Of a stretch of DNA of 35,330 nt, positions 643 through 9,084 are shown one piece after another; position 1 is the stretch's first letter, and every line of letters begins with the position of its first letter. This DNA is from Gemmatimonadota bacterium (GTDB lineage Bacteria > Gemmatimonadota > Gemmatimonadetes > Gemmatimonadales > GWC2-71-9): the NCBI GenBank assembly GCA_003223415.1, contig QHUY01000065.1, positions 47,439-82,768 of the forward strand. The letters run 5' to 3'. Made by a program: the position numbers and the translations under genes. Below the pieces are notes generated by a model that was given only the letters and a program-made list of their open reading frames with translations, searched no databases and had not been told where the DNA came from.

Positions 643-742
643 CGGCGTAGGGAGAGCGGCGTAGGGCAAAAGGCGTAGGGAGAAGCGCGTGACGCCTCTT
701 CCCTACGCCATTTCACCCCTACGCTTTTTCCTAACGCCGTTA
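640..742. repeat. Palindrome of GGCGTAGGG units between convergent genes; possible bidirectional terminator
   Basis: Three direct copies of GGCGTAGGG start at 644, 658 and 672, exactly 14 bases apart. Three inverted, partly degenerate copies follow at 701, 717 and 730. The ends pair as TAACGGCGT (640-648) with ACGCCGTTA (734-742). The outer arms contain the TAA stop of hemB and, on the other strand, the TAA stop of the aquaporin gene. As RNA it would fold into a long imperfect hairpin on either strand, and a run of T follows on the right arm, so it may terminate both genes. The 14-base spacing links it to the seven-base repeats elsewhere in the window. Confidence 0.8.
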
Positions 743-1435
743 GATCTTGGCCGGATCCTTCGGCAGCAGAATGGTCTTCCAGACCAGCCCTGCGAGACCA
801 CCTCCAATGAGGGGCCCGATCCAGTACACCGCCTGCCCGTTCCACTGCCACGCGATCACCGCCGGGCCGAACGCGCGGCCGGGGTTCATCGCGGCGCCGG
901 TGAAGGGGCCGCCGACCACGACGCCCACGAAGATCGCCAGCCCGATGCCGAAGCCGCCGATCTTGGGCGCTTCCGGGGAGACCGCCGTGCCGAACACCGC
1001 GCTCACCAGGAAGAAGGTGAGCATCGCCTCGATCAGGATGCCTTGTAGGAACGTGATGGTGGACGACAGCATCGGCGTGCCGGCGGAGGTCGCGTGCACG
1101 GCGCCCCAGGGGAGCACCGCCTTCAGCAGGGCGGCGCCCAGGATCGCGCCGACCAGCTGTGCGCCCCAATACCGGCCGAGGGTGCCTGCGTCCACCTTGC
1201 CTGCGACGAACAGCCCGAAGGTCACCGCCGGGTTGATGTGGCCGCCGGAGATGTTCATCGTCGCCGAGACGATGACCGCCATCCCGACGCCGTGGGCGAG
1301 CGCGACCATCAGCGCGTTCGACGCTCCGGTCTGCGCGGCCGCCATGCCTGCGGCGACGCTACCCGCGCCCACGAAGACGAACAGCGCCATTCCGATCAAC
1401 TCGGCCGCGAGGGGCCGCAGGGTCTTGGGATTCAC
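740..1435 (-). CDS. MIP-family aquaporin (AqpZ/GlpF-like channel)
   Basis: Inner-membrane channel for water or small neutral solutes, 231 residues, the compact size of AqpZ-type proteins. Six hydrophobic segments are visible. The first half-helix motif is SGGHINPAVTFG; the second is GAAMNPGRAFGP, with glycine where the NPA motif normally has alanine, while the following arginine of the selectivity filter is kept. Start is GTG at 1435. It lies 48 bases downstream of the ketosynthase gene on the same strand and could be co-transcribed with that operon, though the gap is larger than within it. The AqpZ versus GlpF choice is not settled by eye. Its stop codon lies in the shared palindrome with hemB. 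Confidence 0.93.
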   Translation of the reverse strand: MNPKTLRPLAAELIGMALFVFVGAGSVAAGMAAAQTGASNALMVALAHGVGMAVIVSATMNISGGHINPAVTFGLFVAGKVDAGTLGRYWGAQLVGAILGAALLKAVLPWGAVHATSAGTPMLSSTITFLQGILIEAMLTFFLVSAVFGTAVSPEAPKIGGFGIGLAIFVGVVVGGPFTGAAMNPGRAFGPAVIAWQWNGQAVYWIGPLIGGGLAGLVWKTILLPKDPAKI

Positions 1436-1483: not shown

Positions 1484-2725
1484 CTACGCGCGCCGCAACA
1501 CCAGCGTGGCATTGATCCCCCCGAAGCCGAAGGAATTGGTCACGACGACCTCCGGGCGCGCCGGGCGCCCCTCCCGGGGCAGGCAGTCGAGGTCGCAGGC
1601 GGGGTCGGGCTGCTGCAGGTTGATGGTGGGGGGCAGCCAGCCGCGCGCCAGCGCCAGCGCGCAGATCGCCGCTTCGATCGCGCCGCTCGCGCCCAAGGCG
1701 TGACCGTAGTAGCCCTTGGTGCCGCTCACCGCGAGACGGTAGGCGTGCTCGCCGAAGACCTGCTTGAGCGCCGCCGTCTCGGTGCTGTCGTTGAGCGGCG
1801 TGGAGGAGCCGTGGGCGTTCACGTAGCCCACCTCGTGAGGCGCGACGCCGGCATCCTCCAGGGCGAGCCGCATGGCGCGGGCCGCCTGACGCCCGTCGGG
1901 CCGCGGCGCGGTCATGTGGTAGGCGTCGTTGTTGTAGGCGTGGCCCACGATCTCGGCGTACACCTTCGCCCCGCGGGCCACCGCCCGCTCCCGCTCCTCC
2001 AGCACGAGCACCGCCGCTCCCTCGCCCATCACGAACCCGTCCCGCCCGGCGTCGAACGGGCGCGAGGCGGTCCCCGGATCGTCGTTGCGGGTGCTCATCG
2101 CCCGGATGTTGCTGAAGGCCGCGAAGGTGAGCGGCGCGAGCGGCGCCTCCGCGCCCCCGGCCAGCATCACGTCGGCGCGGCCGTCGCGCACCACGTGGAA
2201 CGCCTCACCGACCGCGATCGTCCCCGAGGCGCAACTCATCGCGTTGGTGGCGTTCGGCCCTGTGAAGCCGAACTCGATGGCGATGTTGCAACTCGCCGCC
2301 CCGGGGAAGACCGCGAGCGCAAGCGACGCGTCGAGCCCGCGCGGCCCCTCGGCGAGGAACTTCGGGACCTGCTGCTCCGCGAACGCCACGCCGCCCAACG
2401 CCGAGCCCATCATCGCCCCGATGCGGTCGGGATCCTCCCGCCCGGCCGCGAGCTCGGCGTCCGTGAGCGCCAGCCGCGCACTGGTGACGGCGAGCTGGGA
2501 GAAGCGGTCGAGCCGCTTGGCCCGCTTGGCGTCGAGATGGTCTTGCGGCCGGAAGTCGGGGATCTCCGCCGCGATGTGGCTCCGGAACGGCGACGGGTCG
2601 AACCGCGTCAGCGTCTGCACCGCCGAGCGGCGTGCCTGCAGTCCCCGCCATAACCCGTCGGCCGCCGTGCCGATCGGCGTGACTGCGCCTACGCCGGTGA
2701 TGACGACCCGTCGCCGTCCGGTCAT
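1484..2725 (-). CDS. fabF: Beta-ketoacyl-ACP synthase II (FabF-type ketosynthase)
   Basis: Catalyses decarboxylative Claisen condensation of an acyl thioester with malonyl-ACP. It has 413 residues, the same length as E. coli FabF, with the active-site set offset by two: Cys165 in MSCASGTI, His305 in NAHGSSTPLND, Lys337 in SGTKGYYGH and His342. The glycine-rich C-terminal loop NSFGFGGINATLVL is intact, so it should be active. ATG at 2725 overlaps the SRPBCC stop by one base (TGATG), as at another junction of the unit; an in-frame GTG at 2728 is the alternative. It is the last gene of the packed operon with cyclase-like, methyltransferase and flavin genes, which suggests a specialised rather than housekeeping ketosynthase. 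No acyl carrier protein or chain-length factor is nearby, so the carrier would come from elsewhere. The symbol reflects sequence type, not a proven role in fatty-acid synthesis. Confidence 0.95.
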   Translation of the reverse strand: MTGRRRVVITGVGAVTPIGTAADGLWRGLQARRSAVQTLTRFDPSPFRSHIAAEIPDFRPQDHLDAKRAKRLDRFSQLAVTSARLALTDAELAAGREDPDRIGAMMGSALGGVAFAEQQVPKFLAEGPRGLDASLALAVFPGAASCNIAIEFGFTGPNATNAMSCASGTIAVGEAFHVVRDGRADVMLAGGAEAPLAPLTFAAFSNIRAMSTRNDDPGTASRPFDAGRDGFVMGEGAAVLVLEERERAVARGAKVYAEIVGHAYNNDAYHMTAPRPDGRQAARAMRLALEDAGVAPHEVGYVNAHGSSTPLNDSTETAALKQVFGEHAYRLAVSGTKGYYGHALGASGAIEAAICALALARGWLPPTINLQQPDPACDLDCLPREGRPARPEVVVTNSFGFGGINATLVLRRA

Positions 2726-3234
2726 CACTGTGCCCCCTCCGCGAACCGTTTAATGCCCGCGAGCGTCCGGACGGCGATGCCGTGGACGAAGACCGGGCCG
2801 ATCACGAGCGCGGCGGCCGCGCGCCCGATCAGCGGCCAGCCCGGGCCGTCCCAGGAGTGTACGATCTCCACTTCCACTGTGCCCACCGTGCCTCCGTGCC
2901 TCTGTGCCTCTATGCCTTCTGTGCCTCTGAGCCTCCAGATCACGTCCATGCCTCGCGTGATACCCTGCACGTGCCGGTAGCGGATCTCCCTGTGTGGGGG
3001 ATCGACCGTCATCTCCGACACCCACCATGCAGGCCAGCGCAGCGGCCCTCCCCCTTCCGACCCCCCGAACGACCGCCAGGCAGCCATCTCCACCGTCCCG
3101 CCGTCCGCGCGGCGCTCGAGAAACCGCACCGAGCGGTAGTGAGGCAGGATCGCAGGCCAGCGCTCGACGTCACTAGCGGCGGTGAACACCCGATCGATCG
3201 GGGCTCGAATGGAGATGCGATCGACGGTCAGCAT
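2725..3234 (-). CDS. SRPBCC / polyketide cyclase-like START-fold protein
   Basis: 169 residues. The N-terminus (VDRISIRAPIDRVFTAASDV, then ERWP) is the typical start of the Polyketide_cyc/SRPBCC fold, whose members bind hydrophobic ligands or act as aromatase/cyclases. Later blocks WWVSEMTVDPPHREIRYRHV and IGPVFVHGIAVRTLAGIKRF fit this fold. Residues ~100-119 are encoded by degenerate eight-base repeats (2879-2936) and look like an insertion. It overlaps the methyltransferase by seven bases and the ketosynthase by one, so translational coupling is likely. Next to a ketosynthase, a methyltransferase and a flavin reductase, a cyclase role on a polyketide-like chain is a reasonable inference. 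A lipid carrier or coenzyme-Q-binding role is also possible, because SRPBCC proteins are functionally broad. Confidence 0.85.
   Translation of the reverse strand: MLTVDRISIRAPIDRVFTAASDVERWPAILPHYRSVRFLERRADGGTVEMAAWRSFGGSEGGGPLRWPAWWVSEMTVDPPHREIRYRHVQGITRGMDVIWRLRGTEGIEAQRHGGTVGTVEVEIVHSWDGPGWPLIGRAAAALVIGPVFVHGIAVRTLAGIKRFAEGAQ
2879..2936. repeat. Octamer tandem repeats inside the SRPBCC gene
   Basis: On the + strand about six consecutive units of the type GTGCCTCT run from 2888 to 2936, preceded by a nine-base unit GTGCCCACC. One unit has nine bases, so the array is degenerate. It is translated in frame on the minus strand as residues ~100-119 of the SRPBCC protein, in a stretch rich in Gly, Thr, Glu and His that reads unlike the flanking fold. 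Confidence 0.85.
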
Positions 3235-3941
3235 TCGGTTCGCGAGGCTGATGGCTCCCTCGGCTCCCAGGCCGCCACTATCCTGGCGACCGGAGCGTAG
3301 TAGGCTCGCGCCAGCACGCCGGCTTCTTGGAGCATCGAGTTAAACTCCGCGCGCGTATACCCGCGCCGCAGCGATACCACGGCGTCGCGCCGCGTCTGGG
3401 CGCGCAGGGCCAGGGGGAACGACACCGCCCACATGCCCGCCATGGCGAACCGCGAGCGCCGCAGGTCCGCCAGCACCACGGCGTGTCGCGCGATCCGATC
3501 GAGCGCCGCGATCCAGCGCACGCACGTCTCGCGTGCGAGGTGATGCAGCACCTGGCTGGCCAGCACGACGTCCACCGAGCGCGGGGCCAGGGGCAGAGCG
3601 TCGCCGTCGGCGAGGATCGTCGTGACGCCGGCCGCGCGAGCGAGCCCGGCGGCGGCGGGAATGCGCTCGATGCCCAGCAGGTCGAGCTCGATCCCATAGC
3701 GCCGAGCAATTCGCCGAACTGCGAGCGGGATGTCCCCGGCACCGGTGCCGACATCGAGCAGGGTCCAACGCATCCCGCATCCCGCATCCCGCCTCCCGAC
3801 TCTGTCAAAGATCCTTTCGCAGGCGTTCACGACCGCTCTCGTTCCCCCAAACATCGCGTTGAGGCGTTGGATGTCCCGCAGCTCGGCCCGTACCAGTGCC
3901 GGGTCGGCGCGCGGGTCGTCGAGTAGCTCGGTCCCGAGCAT
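3228..3941 (-). CDS. Class I SAM-dependent methyltransferase
   Basis: 237 residues. Motif I LLDVGTGAGD (residues 61-70) binds S-adenosylmethionine. An acidic second strand LLGIER and the post-motif ASQVLHHL are typical of the Methyltransf_11/25, UbiE-like group. Start is ATG at 3941, sharing one base with the stop of the flavin reductase (TGATG); a longer upstream frame only overlaps that gene and was not used. Residues ~48-58, immediately before motif I, are encoded by GCATCCC heptamers (3770-3797). The C-terminal part (FNSMLQEAG, then VLARAYYAPVARIVAAW) is typical of small-molecule methyltransferases. The substrate cannot be read from sequence; context suggests a polyketide, quinone or lipid intermediate made or modified by the neighbouring enzymes. 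Confidence 0.92.
   Translation of the reverse strand: MLGTELLDDPRADPALVRAELRDIQRLNAMFGGTRAVVNACERIFDRVGRRDAGCGMRWTLLDVGTGAGDIPLAVRRIARRYGIELDLLGIERIPAAAGLARAAGVTTILADGDALPLAPRSVDVVLASQVLHHLARETCVRWIAALDRIARHAVVLADLRRSRFAMAGMWAVSFPLALRAQTRRDAVVSLRRGYTRAEFNSMLQEAGVLARAYYAPVARIVAAWEPREPSASRTEC
3770..3797. repeat. Heptamer tandem repeats inside the methyltransferase gene
   Basis: Three perfect GCATCCC units start at 3770, 3777 and 3784, followed by GCCTCCC at 3791. They encode a Cys/Gly/Arg/Asp-rich insert just before the SAM-binding motif. Confidence 0.88.
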
Positions 3942-4429
3942 CAGCCGCCCGCCAGGTTGGCGTAGCCGCCGCGGTAATAGAGGAGAGGGCGCCGGTCCGA
4001 AACCGCTCCGCCGATGACGAGCCCCAGAAACACCGTGTGGTCCCCGGCCGGCAGCGACGCCTGCTTGGTGCACTCGATGTGGGCCAGCACGCCCTCGAGC
4101 ACGGGCAATCGCTGCTTGTTCTCATGATAGCCGAGGCCGTCGAAGCGGTCCTCCTCGTCCTCGGCGAAGCGGCGGGAGATCGCCTCCTGGTCCGCAGCGA
4201 GGACGTTGACGACGAACTCCGTCGCAGCGTGGAGGGCGTCGTGCATGTCGTGACCGTGATCGACGCACACGAGCAGCAGCGGTGGATCGAGGGACACTGA
4301 AGCGACCGAGCTCGCCGTCATACCGAGGGGGCTCCCGTCCGGCGCGCGCGTGGTCACGACGGTGACGCCGGTCGCGAACCGGCCGAGCAGCTGGCGGAAT
4401 CGGGCGGGATCGACGCCGGGTGCGCTCAC
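3941..4429 (-). CDS. Flavin reductase-domain protein (HpaC/ActVB-like)
   Basis: 162 residues of the Flavin_Reduct (FMN-binding split barrel) family. It opens with FRQLLGRFATGVTVVTT, followed by GMTASSVASVSLDPPLLLVC, the FMN-binding core, and ends with AGDHTVFLGLV. Such proteins use NAD(P)H to supply reduced flavin to a partner monooxygenase; ActVB of actinorhodin synthesis and HpaC are known examples. The start is GTG at 4429, overlapping the stop of the upstream FAD gene in a GTGA; a longer upstream reading only extends back into that gene. Its position next to an FAD oxidoreductase and before a methyltransferase and cyclase-like gene suggests a two-component oxygenation step, but no classical FMNH2-dependent monooxygenase is visible in the window. 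Confidence 0.92.
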   Translation of the reverse strand: MSAPGVDPARFRQLLGRFATGVTVVTTRAPDGSPLGMTASSVASVSLDPPLLLVCVDHGHDMHDALHAATEFVVNVLAADQEAISRRFAEDEEDRFDGLGYHENKQRLPVLEGVLAHIECTKQASLPAGDHTVFLGLVIGGAVSDRRPLLYYRGGYANLAGG

Positions 4430-5654
4430 CAGAGGAGCCGGGCGAGGGTTCGGGGGGCGAGCACCGCGCGCACCGGCACGAAGTTGCCGGTCGCCCCCAC
4501 CACAAGATCCCCGAGATCCGGACGCTGCGCCAGCCGCCCAATGACCCGGTTGGCGAGCGCCGGCCAGCCGACGCCCAGCCCGATGAGACGCTCGAGAACC
4601 CACTTGCCGGCGAACGCGCGGCGTCGCGCCTGCGCGTAGGGCTGCAGGTCCGCGCCTGGGAGTGGGCCACTGACCCCGCGCGCGAGCGCGGGGATGAGGC
4701 AGTCGGCTGCGAGCTCAGCGCCTCGTAAGGCGCTGTAGATCCCCTGGCCGGTGAACGGATCGAAGAAGTCCGCGGCGTCACCCACGAGGCAGGCGCCCCC
4801 CCCCCCCCCCCCCCCCCCCCGGCGAACGGTCCGGTTGCGAGCACCTCGCGCACCAACCGCGCCTCCGTAAACCGGTCCCGCAGCCCGGGGAATCGCTCCA
4901 GCTCCGCTAAGAATCGTGTACGGTGCGCGCGGCCGCGGCCCCACCTCCGCACGGCGGCGAGCGGCAGCACCAGCGCGACGGTCGTCTCCCCGTGCCCGAT
5001 TGGGCCGAGGCCCACATAGCCCAGGCGGCTCACGTGCAGCTCCCCCTGCTCTTCGACGCCCGTGACCCCGGCCACGTGTGCCGCGAAGGCCAGGCGGCGG
5101 GGCAGGCCCGAGCGTCGCAACCCGAGTCGTCGCGCCACGACGGAATGCAGTCCGTCCGCCCCTACGACAACACGGCAGTGAAGCGTCGTCCGTTCTCCGT
5201 TGTCCGTTCTGACGATCACGCCGCCGACCGCTCCCCTCTCGTACAACAGGTCTTCCACCGCCGCCCCCTCCCATACCTGTGCGCCGGCGTGCTCGGCGGC
5301 CTGCCGCAGGATCGTATCTAGCACGGTACGGGGGAGTGCGAGTCCGTAGGGCCGGGGGCTAGGCCAGCGGTGACGGGCGGCGAACCGCCCGACCATCGCG
5401 GTGCCGTCGGGCGCGACCACTTTCATGCCGTAGAGCTTGGCTGGCGCGGCCCGTTCCACCTCTGGGAGCACGTCGGGCCCGAGACGCTCCAGGATCCGGG
5501 TGGTTTCGGGGCTCAGGTACTCCGAGCAGGGTTTGTCGCGTGGGAACCGGGCGCGGTCGAGCAGCAGCACGTCGGCGCCGGCACGGGCGAGCAGCAGCGC
5601 AGTCGCCGACCCGGCGGGCCCGGCGCCGACCACGATGGCGTCGAACCGGCTCAC
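4426..5654 (-). CDS. Geranylgeranyl reductase-family FAD-dependent oxidoreductase, frame broken at a 25-base homopolymer
   Basis: The N-terminal part (about 278 residues from GTG 5654) has the FAD-binding FDAIVVGAGPAGSATALLLA, the KPCSEYLSPE block and the VVVGADGLHSVVARRLG block of the geranylgeranyl reductase/monooxygenase family. The second FAD motif ACLVGDAADFFDPFTGQGIY and the remaining C-terminus are in another frame and end at TGA 4426-4428. The frames meet at a run of 25 C on the + strand (4796-4820), which encodes only glycines. A tract of 23 or 26 bases would restore one protein of about 410 residues. The homopolymer replaces a short variable stretch before the second FAD motif. Related enzymes reduce prenyl chains of lipids or quinones, or hydroxylate or halogenate aromatic compounds. 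It starts seven bases after the DUF92 stop and overlaps the flavin reductase (GTGA). It may be intact with a sequence error, phase-variable, or a pseudogene. Confidence 0.85.
4796..4820. repeat. 25-base poly-C (poly-G on the coding strand) tract
   Basis: An uninterrupted run of 25 C lies inside the FAD oxidoreductase gene, far longer than any other homopolymer in the window (the next longest is 10). The frame before and after differs by one base. It could be a slippage-prone phase-variation tract or an assembly or sequencing artefact. Confidence 0.95.
5189..5209. repeat. Three heptamers inside the FAD oxidoreductase gene
   Basis: TCCGTTC, TCCGTTG and TCCGTTC follow without gap. The 21 bases add exactly seven codons (around residues 149-155, reading RTDNGER), so the frame is kept. 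Confidence 0.75.
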
Positions 5655-5661
5655 GCGGTGG

Positions 5662-6345
5662 TCAGCGAAGCAGCATCCAGCCGAGCGGGACCGCCGCCCC
5701 GGCCAGAGTCGCGGCCAGATTCACACCGTCGTTGTCCAGCCATCGCCGGCCTCTGACGAGCACGACTGGTTCGTGACACACGGTGCCGGTGTGCTCGGTC
5801 CGCGCGGCGCAGGAAGGACACTCGAACAACCCCTGGATGGTGGCGCCGAGGGCCGAGTCCGCGAACATCCCGGCCAGTCCCGCCACCGCCGTGAGGGCGG
5901 CTGACCCCAGGGCGACGCCCCGGGGTTGCACGAGGGCGGCCAACCACGCCATTACCACCGCTCCGGCGGCACCGCCCAGCGTGCCCAGCAGCGTGATACC
6001 CCCGGAGGTCCCCGCCGGCACGGAAGACCACGTCGTGACCAGCCGCGGCGGCCAAGGGGAAAAGGAACCGATCTCCGTCGCCCAGGTGTCGGCCGTCGCG
6101 GCAGCCAGAGCGGCAACCGCAACCGACCACTCCCCGAACAGGGCGGCACCCGCGGCCACGCCGCCGTTAGCGAGCACCTGACGCGCCGTGCGCTGACCGC
6201 CCGCCCCACCGGCAAGCTGTGTGAGCAGGCTCCCGGAGACAAAAAAGGCGAGGAGCACCAGCAGCCCTCGCCATCCCAGCCCCCAGCCGACCGCCGCGCC
6301 GACGCAGAGGGCAGCCACCAAGCCGCCCCGGGTCAGCCACTTCAC
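5662..6345 (-). CDS. DUF92 family integral membrane protein (TMEM19/VTE6-like)
   Basis: 227 residues with five or six hydrophobic segments. Family hallmarks are ARQVLANGG, ATADTWATEIG, VPAGTSGGI and DNDGVNL. DUF92 includes plant and cyanobacterial phytyl-phosphate kinase VTE6, which phosphorylates an isoprenoid monophosphate, and the little-understood TMEM19. A CPSC-type motif (ECPSCAARTEHTGTVCHEP) before the last segments is a cysteine-rich loop that could bind metal. Start is GTG at 6345, overlapping the anti-sigma stop (GTGA). It is followed after seven bases by the geranylgeranyl-reductase-like gene, so a joint role in prenyl-chain handling is possible; this is inference. Confidence 0.9.
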   Translation of the reverse strand: MKWLTRGGLVAALCVGAAVGWGLGWRGLLVLLAFFVSGSLLTQLAGGAGGQRTARQVLANGGVAAGAALFGEWSVAVAALAAATADTWATEIGSFSPWPPRLVTTWSSVPAGTSGGITLLGTLGGAAGAVVMAWLAALVQPRGVALGSAALTAVAGLAGMFADSALGATIQGLFECPSCAARTEHTGTVCHEPVVLVRGRRWLDNDGVNLAATLAGAAVPLGWMLLR

Positions 6346-6566
6346 TCGCCGAACAGCTCGTGCAGCAGCCGGCGTTTAAGCTCCGGTGGTGCACCCTCGG
6401 CGCGGCACCGGGTCCGCAGAAACCGCAGGAACATCCCTTCGAAGTCGAAGTGCTCCCCACAGGGCTCGCAATCGGCCAGGTGGTCCCGGATCTGCCGTTC
6501 CGTCTCCGGGGTCAGCTCCTTGTCCAGGAACTCGTACAGATGCTCTTCGCATTCGCGGCAGTTCAT
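6342..6566 (-). CDS. Zinc-binding anti-sigma factor, RsrA-like (ZAS family)
   Basis: 74 residues. Cys3, His29, Cys33 and Cys36 form the ZAS ligand set, with HLADCEPC as the H-x3-C-x2-C motif. Cys3 to His29 is 26 residues, the same spacing as Cys11 to His37 in Streptomyces RsrA. Extra cysteines at 6 and 54 could take part in disulfide switching. RsrA-type proteins hold a SigR sigma factor inactive when reduced and release it on thiol oxidation. The ATG at 6566 overlaps the stop of the sigma gene (ATGA), the usual arrangement for a cognate pair. Redox sensing is inferred from the cysteine pattern and the partner. Confidence 0.92.
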   Translation of the reverse strand: MNCRECEEHLYEFLDKELTPETERQIRDHLADCEPCGEHFDFEGMFLRFLRTRCRAEGAPPELKRRLLHELFGE

Positions 6567-7141
6567 GCGGGACTTCCTTTGATGTAGCCCATGCTCACGG
6601 CGTACTGGTACAGCTTCCCCTGGAGCGCCTGCCGGGCGCGGAACAGCCGCGACTTCACCGTGCCTACCGGCACACCCAGGATCTTGCCGATCTCCTGGTA
6701 GCTCAGCCCCTCGACGTCGCTCAGGACCAGCGTCTCCCGGAACGCTTCCGGGAGCTCATCGATGGCCTTGAGCACCTCGTCGTCGACGATCCGGTCGAAG
6801 AAGGCCCCCTGGGGGTCGTCGTCCTGTACCTCTCCAAACACCGCGAACGGCTCGATGGTGTCCACGTCCACGGTTTCGGGGTGCCGGGTGCGGCGCCGGT
6901 ATTCATTAATAAAGGAATTGCGCAGGATGGTGAGCAGCCATCCCTTCGCGTTGGTTCCTTTCTCGTACTGGTCCCAGGAGCGGTACGCCTTGAGCATGGT
7001 CTCCTGGACCAGGTCGTCGGCGTCGGCGGCGTTGCCGGTCAAGCGCAGGGCGACGCGGTAGAGGGTGTCGAGGTGGACCAGCGCCTCCTGCTCGAAGCTG
7101 GCCCGCTTCTGATCGACCGGGGTGGGGGTCGGAGTGGCCAT
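6563..7141 (-). CDS. ECF RNA polymerase sigma factor, SigR/RpoE-like
   Basis: 192 residues from ATG 7141, which has an AGGGA ribosome site just upstream; a further in-frame start at 7180 would add 13 residues and lacks a better site. Region 2 is clear (RVALRLTGNAADADDLVQET, then KAYRSWDQYEKGTNAKGWLL, then RNSFINEYRRR). The EKGTNAKGWLLTIL stretch closely resembles SigR of actinobacteria. Region 4 (VEGLSYQEIGKILGVPVGTV, then KSRLFRARQ) is complete. The partner anti-sigma gene follows with a four-base overlap. It heads the operon and probably controls it, by analogy with auto-regulated SigR-RsrA loci. No clear GGAAT-N18-GTT promoter was found upstream, although several GGAAC/GGAAT words occur there. 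Confidence 0.95.
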   Translation of the reverse strand: MATPTPTPVDQKRASFEQEALVHLDTLYRVALRLTGNAADADDLVQETMLKAYRSWDQYEKGTNAKGWLLTILRNSFINEYRRRTRHPETVDVDTIEPFAVFGEVQDDDPQGAFFDRIVDDEVLKAIDELPEAFRETLVLSDVEGLSYQEIGKILGVPVGTVKSRLFRARQALQGKLYQYAVSMGYIKGSPA

Positions 7142-7195
7142 ACGTCCCTGAAGGCTGACGCGGGCTGCCGGGTTCCGCAATGGGGTGCCAGGGTG

Positions 7196-7275
7196 CTAGC
7201 CCCGTTCCACCGCCGCCCACACGGGGATGTCGAGGATCCCCCGCTCCCATTCCCAGGGCGTTGGAACGGGGCTAG
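7196..7275. repeat. Inverted-repeat element with outward TGGAACGG arms (copy A)
   Basis: Fourteen bases at 7196-7209 (CTAGCCCCGTTCCA) are perfectly inverted at 7262-7275. The 52-base centre holds a smaller hairpin (GGGGAT 7223-7228 with ATCCCC 7236-7241). The element lies between the divergent sigma operon and the 7288 gene. It shares CCGTTCCA, CGCCCACAC and GCGTTGGAACGG words in the same order with the element at 29545-29605, also between divergent genes. Confidence 0.8.
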
Positions 7276-7287
7276 GTTTCGCGCGCC

Positions 7288-7893
7288 GTGGTCCATAGCA
7301 TCCTCCCCCTCGCCGTGCTCGAAGCGGTCCGCAACCTGGACACCCCGGTCGAGGACGGCCTCGCCGAATTCGCGGACGAGCTCCTCGTCAAGCGGCTCGG
7401 CCTCTCCAGCACCGTCGCCATGCAGCTCACCCAGTACGAGGCGCTGGTGCGCCGGGACGCAGGCGTCGACGCCGCGCACGTCGAGGCGCTGCTGCGCCTG
7501 GTGGGGCGGCGACCGGACGCGGACCTCGTGTTCGCCGACGCGGGGCGGCGCGCCGCGCGCCGTGCGGTGCGGCGGCTGTCCGGGCTCTCCCGGCTCGCGG
7601 CACAGCTGGCCCCCAACTCACTCGGCTACGTAGCGGCGCGGCGGGCCGCACGCGCCGTGCTGGGCGGCGACCTGCGCCGCGAGCAACAGGTGCCGGTGGC
7701 GCGCGTGGGCGACACCCTGGCCGTGAGCGCGACGCCCGACGGCGCCGCCTGCGGCGTGTACGGCGCCGCCTTCGCGGAGCTGCTCCGGCTGCTCGTCGGC
7801 TTCGAGGGCGCGATGCTGCACACCGCCTGTCGCACGGGCGGCGCCCCGCAGTGCGAGTGGCGCGCGGCTCCCCCCGACTCCAGACACCACTGA
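7288..7893 (+). CDS. Small protein of unknown function with V4R-like C-terminus
   Basis: 201 residues from GTG 7288. No signal peptide or membrane segment is seen. The first half is helical and Arg/Ala/Leu-rich. The C-terminus (GAACGVYGAAFAELLRLLVG, then ACRTGGAPQCEWR) resembles the end of V4R domains, small ligand-binding domains with a C...G...C-W pattern; this is a weak reading. The stop TGA is directly followed by the ATG of the M24 peptidase, so the two genes are co-transcribed. Function is not recognised. Confidence 0.75.
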   Translation: MVHSILPLAVLEAVRNLDTPVEDGLAEFADELLVKRLGLSSTVAMQLTQYEALVRRDAGVDAAHVEALLRLVGRRPDADLVFADAGRRAARRAVRRLSGLSRLAAQLAPNSLGYVAARRAARAVLGGDLRREQQVPVARVGDTLAVSATPDGAACGVYGAAFAELLRLLVGFEGAMLHTACRTGGAPQCEWRAAPPDSRHH

Positions 7894-9084
7894 ATGGCTG
7901 CTCCGCTCGAGGGGTTCGACTTCGCCGCTCTGCGCCAAGCCCTCGCCGACTTGGGCGCCGACGGCTGGCTGCTCTACGACTTCCGCGGCGTGAATCCCGT
8001 CGCGCCGCACGTGCTGGGCCTCCACGGGTTAGCGACCCGCCGGCTGTTCGTCCTGCTGCCGCGCGATGGCGCCCCCGTCGCGCTGGCGCACAAGATCGAG
8101 CTCGGGCCGTTCGCGGGCTTCCCAGGCGAGGTGCGCCCGTACGCAGCGTGGCGTGAGCTGCACGCCGGCCTACGCGCGCTCGTCGCTGGCAAGACGCTGG
8201 CGCTGGAAGTCTCGACCAACGACAACGTGCCCTACTTGGACCGCGTGCCGCACGGCGTCGTGCAGCTGCTCGAGTCGCTGGGTGCGCGCATCGTCTCTTC
8301 GGCACCGCTCGTCACGCGGTTCGCGGCGCGCTGGTCGGCCGCCGAGCTCGAGGGGCACCGTCGCGCCGCGGAGACGCTCGCCGACGTGGCGCAGGATGCC
8401 ATCCGCTGGGCGGGTGCCGAGACCACGCGCGGGGCGGAGGTGCGGGAGACGGCGGTGCAGCGCCGCGTGCTCGAGGGGTTCGCGCGCGTCGGGCTCGTGA
8501 CCGACCACCCGCCGATCGTCGGCTTCCAGGAGAACACGGCGAACCCCCACTACGAGCCGCACGAGGGGGAGGGGACCGACCGGCGACTCGTCGCGGGGCA
8601 AGTGATCCTGGTGGACCTGTGGGCCGGTCCGGCCCTGGGCAGCGTGTTCGCCGATCAGACATGGATGGGCTTCAGCGGCCGCGCGCCGGACGCCGAGGTA
8701 CGGCGGGTCTGGGACGCGGTACGCGGTGCGCGGGACGCCGCAGTGGAGCTACTGCGCGCCCGATGGGCGGGGCATCGCCCCGTAACAGGCGCCGAGTTGG
8801 ACGACGCGGCGCGCGGCGTGATCCGCGACGCCGGCTACGCCGCCCACTTCCCGCACCGCACCGGCCATTCGATCGACCGGGAGCTGCACGGCTCGGGGCC
8901 GCACCTCGATAACTTCGAGACCGCCGACGACCGAATCCTCGTGGCCGGGGTCGGGTTTTCCGTGGAGCCGGGGATCTACCTCGAGGGCCGCTTCGGCATG
9001 CGCACCGAAATCAACGTGTTTCTGGGGGAAACCGGTCCCGAGGTGACACCCCACGCTCCGCAGCGCGAGCTGCTGCTCGTGTGA
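7894..9084 (+). CDS. M24 family metallopeptidase (Xaa-Pro aminopeptidase/dipeptidase-like)
   Basis: 396 residues. The N-terminal creatinase-like domain (about 1-145) precedes the pita-bread catalytic domain (about 150-390). The five metal ligands are visible: Asp241 (ILVDLWA), Asp254 (FADQTW), His325 (HRTGHSID), Glu358 (SVEPGIYL) and Glu372 (MRTEINVF). M24 peptidases of this shape remove N-terminal residues before proline or cleave Xaa-Pro dipeptides using two Mn, Co or Zn ions in the cytoplasm. No signal peptide is present. The start ATG abuts the preceding stop codon. Exact substrate preference cannot be told. Confidence 0.93.
   Translation: MAAPLEGFDFAALRQALADLGADGWLLYDFRGVNPVAPHVLGLHGLATRRLFVLLPRDGAPVALAHKIELGPFAGFPGEVRPYAAWRELHAGLRALVAGKTLALEVSTNDNVPYLDRVPHGVVQLLESLGARIVSSAPLVTRFAARWSAAELEGHRRAAETLADVAQDAIRWAGAETTRGAEVRETAVQRRVLEGFARVGLVTDHPPIVGFQENTANPHYEPHEGEGTDRRLVAGQVILVDLWAGPALGSVFADQTWMGFSGRAPDAEVRRVWDAVRGARDAAVELLRARWAGHRPVTGAELDDAARGVIRDAGYAAHFPHRTGHSIDRELHGSGPHLDNFETADDRILVAGVGFSVEPGIYLEGRFGMRTEINVFLGETGPEVTPHAPQRELLLV

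Follow-up and report, generated by a model that had tools for sequence, protein, structure and literature searches.

The stretch analysed here (the window) comprises 35,330 nucleotides of contig C226 (QHUY01000065.1) from the Gemmatimonadota bacterium assembly GCA_003223415.1 (3.53 Mb, 280 contigs, 97.5% complete). Calls of open reading frames (ORFs) and family searches identified an operon of eight genes, all on the minus strand, that joins a SigR/RsrA-like sigma switch to a set of biosynthetic enzymes. The first gene encodes a SigR-like extracytoplasmic function (ECF) sigma factor (6563..7141), whose best NCBIfam match is TIGR02947 (169.3 bits, below the cut-off of 251.55), and the second an RsrA-like zinc anti-sigma factor (6342..6566), which exceeds the cut-off of TIGR03988 (69.7 against 62.5 bits). 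These are followed by a DUF92 membrane protein (5662..6345; PF01940, 169.5 bits), a flavin adenine dinucleotide (FAD) enzyme of the geranylgeranyl-reductase superfamily (4426..5654), a flavin reductase (FR, 3941..4429; PF01613, 154.8 bits), a PRK06202-like class I S-adenosylmethionine (SAM) methyltransferase (MT, 3228..3941; NF004851, 124.9 bits, below the cut-off of 243), an SRPBCC aromatase/cyclase-like protein (2725..3234; PF03364, 45.6 bits) and a FabF-type ketosynthase (KS, 1484..2728), which passes the FabF equivalog TIGR03150 (519.6 bits, cut-off 493.75). Neighbouring genes overlap by 4, 4, 4, 1, 7 and 4 bases, with a single gap of 7 bases between the DUF92 and FAD genes. The eight genes, their order and all overlaps were as described in a first-pass annotation of this DNA, except that it had overlooked a break in the FAD frame at 4796-4820.

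The FAD gene is not a single open frame, since a 25-C run (plus strand, 4796-4820) shifts the frame at a place where relatives have about ten codons. The two halves, read separately, both match the same superfamily. Among the 48 other clusters described below, 45 yielded a stop-free FAD ORF, which is 371-434 amino acids long in 44; 27 of these 44 full-length proteins entered the FAD alignment. A pattern of 20 G gave 355 overlapping matches in the window's assembly (both strands), as compared with none in 17 of 20 relatives and 4, 11, and 59 in the other three. The assembly is far richer in such matches than its relatives, which makes an error of sequencing or assembly the most likely cause of the break. 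A reading of the gene as a pseudogene was dropped, G/C runs being found across the whole assembly.

The SRPBCC gene is present in 49 of the 61 genomes sampled from the order, and through it we identified 49 clusters, the window's own included, plus eight from other orders. Among the 49 are clusters of the window's family (f1), of the family called Gemmatimonadaceae (f2), and of a third family (f3); a cluster is said to have room where its contig extends far enough, and absence of a gene from a locus was judged by tblastn. A second set of named loci holds 80 of 241 confirmed FAD relatives, all 80 from Gemmatimonadota. The two sets overlap partly (L025 = L116 and L024 = L124, one contig each), so that their counts must not be added. 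Beside the SRPBCC gene and in the same direction, the KS gene was found in 48 of the 49 clusters (the one miss is a contig end), the MT gene in 48 (missing in L024), and the FAD gene in 47 (both misses are contig ends). The linkage is therefore more than chance. FR was identified in 44 of 49 clusters, two of the misses being contig ends. DUF92 belongs to 37 of the 44 clusters whose contig gives room for it (five others are contig ends), and the seven clusters that lack it all belong to the window's family; no genome has more than one full-length copy, and 47 of 61 have one. An aquaporin gene (MIP; PF00230), the 3' neighbour of KS in the window (740..1435, minus strand), recurs there in 37 of the 48 clusters whose contigs have room and is probably outside the pathway.

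Among the 12 genomes of the order without SRPBCC, no operon-type KS was found, save one stop-bearing fragment in G005. In the phylum, the cyclase was identified in 170 of 298 sampled genomes, 31 of them from other orders of class Gemmatimonadetes, with no match outside the class and no plasmid-borne copy at E 0.001. The eight class-level loci, fetched from these 31 genomes, read MT-FAD-SRPBCC-KS; they contain neither FR nor DUF92, and no sigma pair heads them. In L242 a weak sigma match (35%) lies about 7 kb off on the other strand. FAD, MT, SRPBCC, and KS are thus a core cassette that recurs in class Gemmatimonadetes. No description of the cassette was found among the papers listed in searches of the open literature, subscription journals being outside that coverage, in agreement with the earlier impression that this gene combination is not a recognised system. 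A Gemmatimonadales contig with a terpene and a nonribosomal peptide synthetase/polyketide synthase (NRPS/PKS) cluster, and 31 clusters in the phylum, have been reported, and none of those described in the available part of that text is the cassette (PMC8692599). In genome G036 (L076/L105), the MT-FAD-SRPBCC-KS cluster lies apart from SigR-RsrA-DUF92-FR, and its FAD protein groups with those of another order (84/99, then 87/72), a possible replacement by transfer.

At the head of the operon, the zinc-binding CHCC motif of RsrA (C3-H29-C33-C36, spacing 26-4-3, with an N-terminal Cys) was invariant in 18 of 18 sequences. Its spacing is identical to that of the redox-sensing motif of S. coelicolor RsrA, given as Cys11-His37-Cys41-Cys44 in the available text of PMC4960319. 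The invariant motif and the RsrA cut-off passed bear out the earlier assignment of the pair to the thiol-redox type. A putative SigR-type promoter was identified just upstream, with a -35 GGAAC at 7172..7176 (minus strand), a spacer of 18, and a -10 CTT at 7151-7153, and it is the only GGAA[CT]-N18-[GC]TT site on the minus strand of the window. The SigR consensus is GGAAT-N18-GTT. Of 31 regions that precede sigR, 22 contain the GGAA[CT]-N18-[GC]TT pattern (GTT in 12, CTT in 10, the window's included), while other spacings from 10 to 26 gave 0-2 sites; mononucleotide shuffles, made for the GTT form, gave a mean of 0.07 of 31 and a maximum of 2. A longer alternative start of the sigma gene (TTG at 7180) exists, and the start was taken as ATG 7141 because the promoter falls between the two. 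Since the -10 ends 9 bases ahead of this ATG, the operon mRNA is probably near-leaderless. In the same divergent region, between sigR and a plus-strand ORF of 201 amino acids (7288-7893), we noted by eye an inverted repeat at 7196-7209 / 7262-7275 (TGGAACGGGGCTAG and its complement); the ORF has no Pfam or NCBIfam match and adjoins an M24 peptidase gene (7894-9084). As in S. coelicolor SigR-RsrA, the CHCC spacing and overlapping sigma and anti-sigma genes are found, and a GGAA[CT]-N18-[GC]TT promoter in most of the regions (neither form in 9 of 31), whereas the pair in the window heads a biosynthetic operon, its sigma factor falls below the SigH_actino cut-off, and no wider regulon was seen. 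A wider SigR regulon was considered and rejected, the pattern CGGAAC-N18-GTT being at chance level in the genome and its ten sites, on inspection, showing no clear thiol-redox gene.

In the window's family, 24 clusters have room for a sigma gene; 18 of these, including the window's and four that lack DUF92, carry it upstream. Among the 80 named loci, counted without correction for contig ends, SigR is upstream in 35. A frame of SigR-RsrA-DUF92 on one side and aquaporin-HemB on the other encloses the cassette in the window's family only. The link between sigma switch and cassette is real, although only one family was seen to have it.

The SRPBCC protein has sequence matches to SCO5315 (2kf2, E 8e-9), WhiE ORFVI (3tl1, E 3e-8), and TcmN, and its AlphaFold2 model (predicted local distance difference test, pLDDT, 89.7) matches the folds of ZhuI (3tfz, E 5e-9, TMq 0.76), WhiE-VI, and TcmN. 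Its sequence and its predicted fold thus both resemble those of polyketide aromatase/cyclases. In an alignment of 47 rows, W26, H32, Y33, R34, R54, W71, H88, H126, and W128 are invariant. A tandem repeat with a unit of about 8 bases (2877-2935) forms an in-frame insertion in this gene, seen in the window only among seven aligned rows, and another with a unit of about 7 bases lies inside the MT gene (3769-3798).

The operon KS retains a Cys-His-His-Lys active site (C166, H306, K338, and H343, invariant in 22 of 22). Of the 47 operon KS available (the window's and 46 extracted), 22 were placed in a tree together with 17 ordinary FabF proteins; they form a clade of their own (100/100) apart from the 17 fatty-acid FabF rows (100/99). 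Fixed changes near the active site are S165, A110, S308, and L111 in 22 of 22 and Y341 in 20 of 22. An ordinary FabF is encoded elsewhere in the genome, in a plsX-fabH-fabD-fabG-acpP-fabF cluster (named from ORF reading, the acyl carrier protein, ACP, also by profile match), and an ordinary FabF-like KS was found in 46 of 48 genomes with an operon KS, the exceptions being G016 and G025 (61% and 69% complete). No chain-length factor was identified, the window's genome holding only two KS-like genes, both with the active-site Cys, and none of its three PP-binding matches lies on contig C226, so that no clustered ACP was found. The enzymes accordingly fit the earlier description, in which a path that tailors an aromatic polyketide or lipid lacks both chain-length factor and clustered ACP. 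With type II aromatic polyketide clusters (WhiE, TcmN) the cassette shares a FabF-like KS adjoining an SRPBCC cyclase, plus MT and FAD enzymes; it differs in having neither chain-length factor nor clustered ACP, and in a Met in place of TcmN R69.

A second comparison is with type III polyketide synthase (T3PKS) operons. In hidABC and in planctomycete operons the order is MT-oxidoreductase-T3PKS, and planctomycete synthases with the MT and oxidoreductase yielded methylated alkylresorcinols, according to the available text of both reports (PMC8086630, PMC10896814). The cassette has the same two tailoring classes with the condensing function last, and the order MT-FAD-synthase holds in 8 of 8 class-level cassettes. 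It differs in using a FabF-type KS and an SRPBCC protein with no type III PKS, in its FAD enzymes, which lie on a different branch, and in the order of the window, FAD-FR-MT-SRPBCC-KS. Two genomes without the cassette, G021 and G027, carry MT-FAD-T3PKS operons. The MT and FAD enzymes of the G027 operon agree with those of the cassette in their best families; a T3PKS-linked MT (L196) and the operon MTs share NF004851, and their FAD enzymes share TIGR02032. A type III PKS as the missing synthase was rejected, as the domain PF02797 has no match in the window's genome and is present in 5 of 61 genomes. A Hid-type ancestry of the FAD gene was also rejected, blast and the tree (midpoint-rooted; one T3PKS-linked row, L198, contains a stop) placing the T3PKS-linked FAD enzymes outside those of the cassette. 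For that reason the parallel is one of analogy and not of descent. A halogenase role of the FAD enzyme was likewise discarded: the best solved-structure matches of the L025 protein are halogenases, but the flavin-dependent halogenase motif WxWxIP is missing, its position being of the type GYVGL in the Gemmatimonadales FAD enzymes; an Azospirillum relative has GWFWFIP there.

Taken together, we tentatively propose, at a probability of about 0.4, that a dedicated KS and cyclase make an aromatic lipid, and that in the window's family their genes are read through from a self-amplifying thiol-stress promoter. RsrA would hold SigR until its zinc cysteines are oxidised, and free SigR would then transcribe its own operon from GGAAC-N18-[GC]TT just 5' of sigR, giving a near-leaderless mRNA in which the overlapping downstream genes are read through. 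The dedicated FabF-type KS would lengthen an acyl primer carried by a general ACP, with the SRPBCC protein guiding ring closure or aromatisation; the ring would be methylated by MT and hydroxylated by the FAD enzyme, acting as a monooxygenase with reduced flavin from FR, to give a phenolic or quinone lipid. The data show the anatomy of the operon, its conservation, the protein families, the predicted fold, the promoter pattern, and the redox motif, while redox induction, read-through, and the order of reactions are what we infer; an aromatic lipid is suggested by analogy, because the class-level order of MT, FAD, cyclase, and KS parallels MT-oxidoreductase-T3PKS, and as a pathway class it is plausible. 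The cassette would then be an analogue of the alkylresorcinol-making operons in which cyclase and KS replace the type III PKS. A more far-reaching form of the proposal, in which KS (with neither chain-length factor nor dedicated ACP) and SRPBCC make a phenolic or quinone membrane lipid throughout the class as a convergent T3PKS substitute, and the autoregulated SigR operon of one soil family makes it as a membrane antioxidant in thiol stress, we consider unlikely.

Several observations weigh against the proposed thiol-stress operon for an aromatic lipid. On the chemical side, plant abscisic-acid receptors match the SRPBCC model about as well as the cyclases do, so that the fold alone is no proof of function, and the position of TcmN R69, an arginine important for the TcmN/WhiE cyclases, is Met75 in 98% of the SRPBCC family, so that known cyclase chemistry is not simply transferable. 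FR is absent from three of 47 clusters with room (L045, L061, and L076) and from all eight class-level loci, and MT is missing from L024 and from 8 of the 80 named loci (among them L124, on the same contig as L024). The T3PKS-operon FAD enzymes are not the nearest relatives of the cassette's, and only two of five T3PKS loci have relatives of both MT and FAD, one having MT only and two neither. On the regulatory side, the SigR-type promoter is absent from 9 of the 31 upstream regions, which are not independent because many are close relatives, and genome-wide CGGAAC-N18-GTT, a pattern that excludes the window's CTT site, showed no enrichment over the control (10 sites against 8). No sigma head was found in 13 of 13 f2 clusters and 3 of 3 f3 clusters with room, nor in 8 of 8 clusters of other orders. 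Two Gemmatimonas metagenome-assembled genomes (L151 and L190) also have the cassette with no sigma gene heading it. SigR-RsrA-DUF92-aquaporin occurs without the cassette between in G005, G019, and G006. We noted separately that L122, L123, L124, L128, L130, L133, L140, and L145, like L024, have FAD and SRPBCC without MT.

In addition, the gene next after SigR-RsrA-DUF92 is HemB in G016 and FR in G036, and L057 (f2) has RsrA alone; G005 and G019 have no SRPBCC match, and the SRPBCC clusters of G006, G016, and G036 are on a contig other than that of the sigma pair. As frame and enzymes also occur separately, the enzymes are a cassette, flanked in one family by SigR-RsrA-DUF92 and aquaporin-HemB. 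The first-pass annotation had named relatives carrying the enzymes without the sigma pair as evidence against its proposal, and f2, f3, and the other orders hold such relatives; its link of sigma factor and pathway stands for the window's family, where it is supported by 18 of 24 clusters and a conserved promoter, and does not stand as a general property of the pathway. The same separations could mean that SigR-RsrA serves the family as a general thiol-stress pair without function for the pathway, the cassette merely lying downstream and being transcribed mainly from its own promoter. Room for such a promoter would exist in nine f1 relatives, whose DUF92 and FAD matches are 424-544 bp apart with, by eye, a small lipoprotein-like gene in between (L029, L040, L041, L044, L060, L068, L071, L073, and L075). 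The window itself leaves little room, its genes overlapping by 1-7 bases or sitting 7 apart, and its sole minus-strand SigR-type site is at the operon head; the sigma adjacency extends to four f1 clusters lacking DUF92. We regard a functionless link as somewhat unlikely.

The enzymes might also serve an unusual fatty-acid pathway, in which KS, FAD, and MT build a cyclised, methylated, or desaturated acyl chain for membrane lipids with no aromatic ring, as in the proposal for anammox ladderanes. The KS is a FabF by family, and in some clusters a B12-binding radical SAM gene stands between DUF92 and FAD (5 of 13 f2 and 2 of 5 f3 clusters with room; 12 of the 80 named loci). The one of these tested (L051:8058-9515) has TIGR04072, a lipid-biosynthesis B12/radical SAM family, as its best family, although at 328.5 bits it misses the cut-off of 360. 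None of the 23 f1 clusters with room, the window's among them, has the radical SAM gene, and the SRPBCC protein points to ring chemistry. What the cassette shares with the anammox clusters is a FabF paralogue, a SAM methyltransferase, and, for some relatives, a radical SAM protein nearest TIGR04072, whereas it has few genes; the ladderane candidates of Rattray et al. are, in the available text, several fatty-acid gene clusters with many FabF paralogues (PMC2649909). On balance, such a pathway appears unlikely. A B12 radical SAM gene ahead of FAD was also noted in L033, L037, and L054-L057.

Tailoring of a quinone or isoprenoid is another option: DUF92, the geranylgeranyl-reductase-like FAD enzyme, a UbiE-like MT, and a COQ10-like SRPBCC would modify menaquinone or a tocopherol-like lipid, with KS as an accessory. 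The best family of the FAD enzyme, TIGR02032, belongs to the geranylgeranyl-reductase superfamily and MenJ is among the next-best; the cut-off of 158.8 is unreached (L025 138.5, L051 156.1, window N-part 117.2). DUF92, presumably the family of the plant VTE6 phytyl-phosphate kinase, lies at the locus in most clusters with room (37 of 44), but it is absent from seven f1 clusters with room and from all eight class-level loci, KS being present in each, and the operon has no prenyltransferase. Structure 1t17, which we take to be COQ10-like, matches the SRPBCC profile at E 0.005, and the protein is closer to WhiE/BexL/TcmN (E 3e-8 to 2e-5). We find this tailoring role improbable. That KS is a spare housekeeping FabF with unrelated neighbours, as its passing of TIGR03150 could suggest, is very improbable and already refuted in part, given its separate clade (100/100), its co-occurrence with SRPBCC, and the ordinary FabF-like KS already present in 46 of 48 genomes with an operon KS.

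An aromatic lipid made by the dedicated KS and cyclase, under a thiol-stress promoter in the window's family, thus remains our preferred, tentative reading. Over half of the sampled Gemmatimonadota genomes encode the cyclase, and our searches turned up no product described for the cassette. Should the reading hold, a common soil phylum would have a conserved lipid of its own, resorcinol- or quinone-type lipids would have a second evolutionary route without a type III PKS, and the operon of the window would show in simple form how a thiol-stress sigma factor can capture a biosynthetic pathway.

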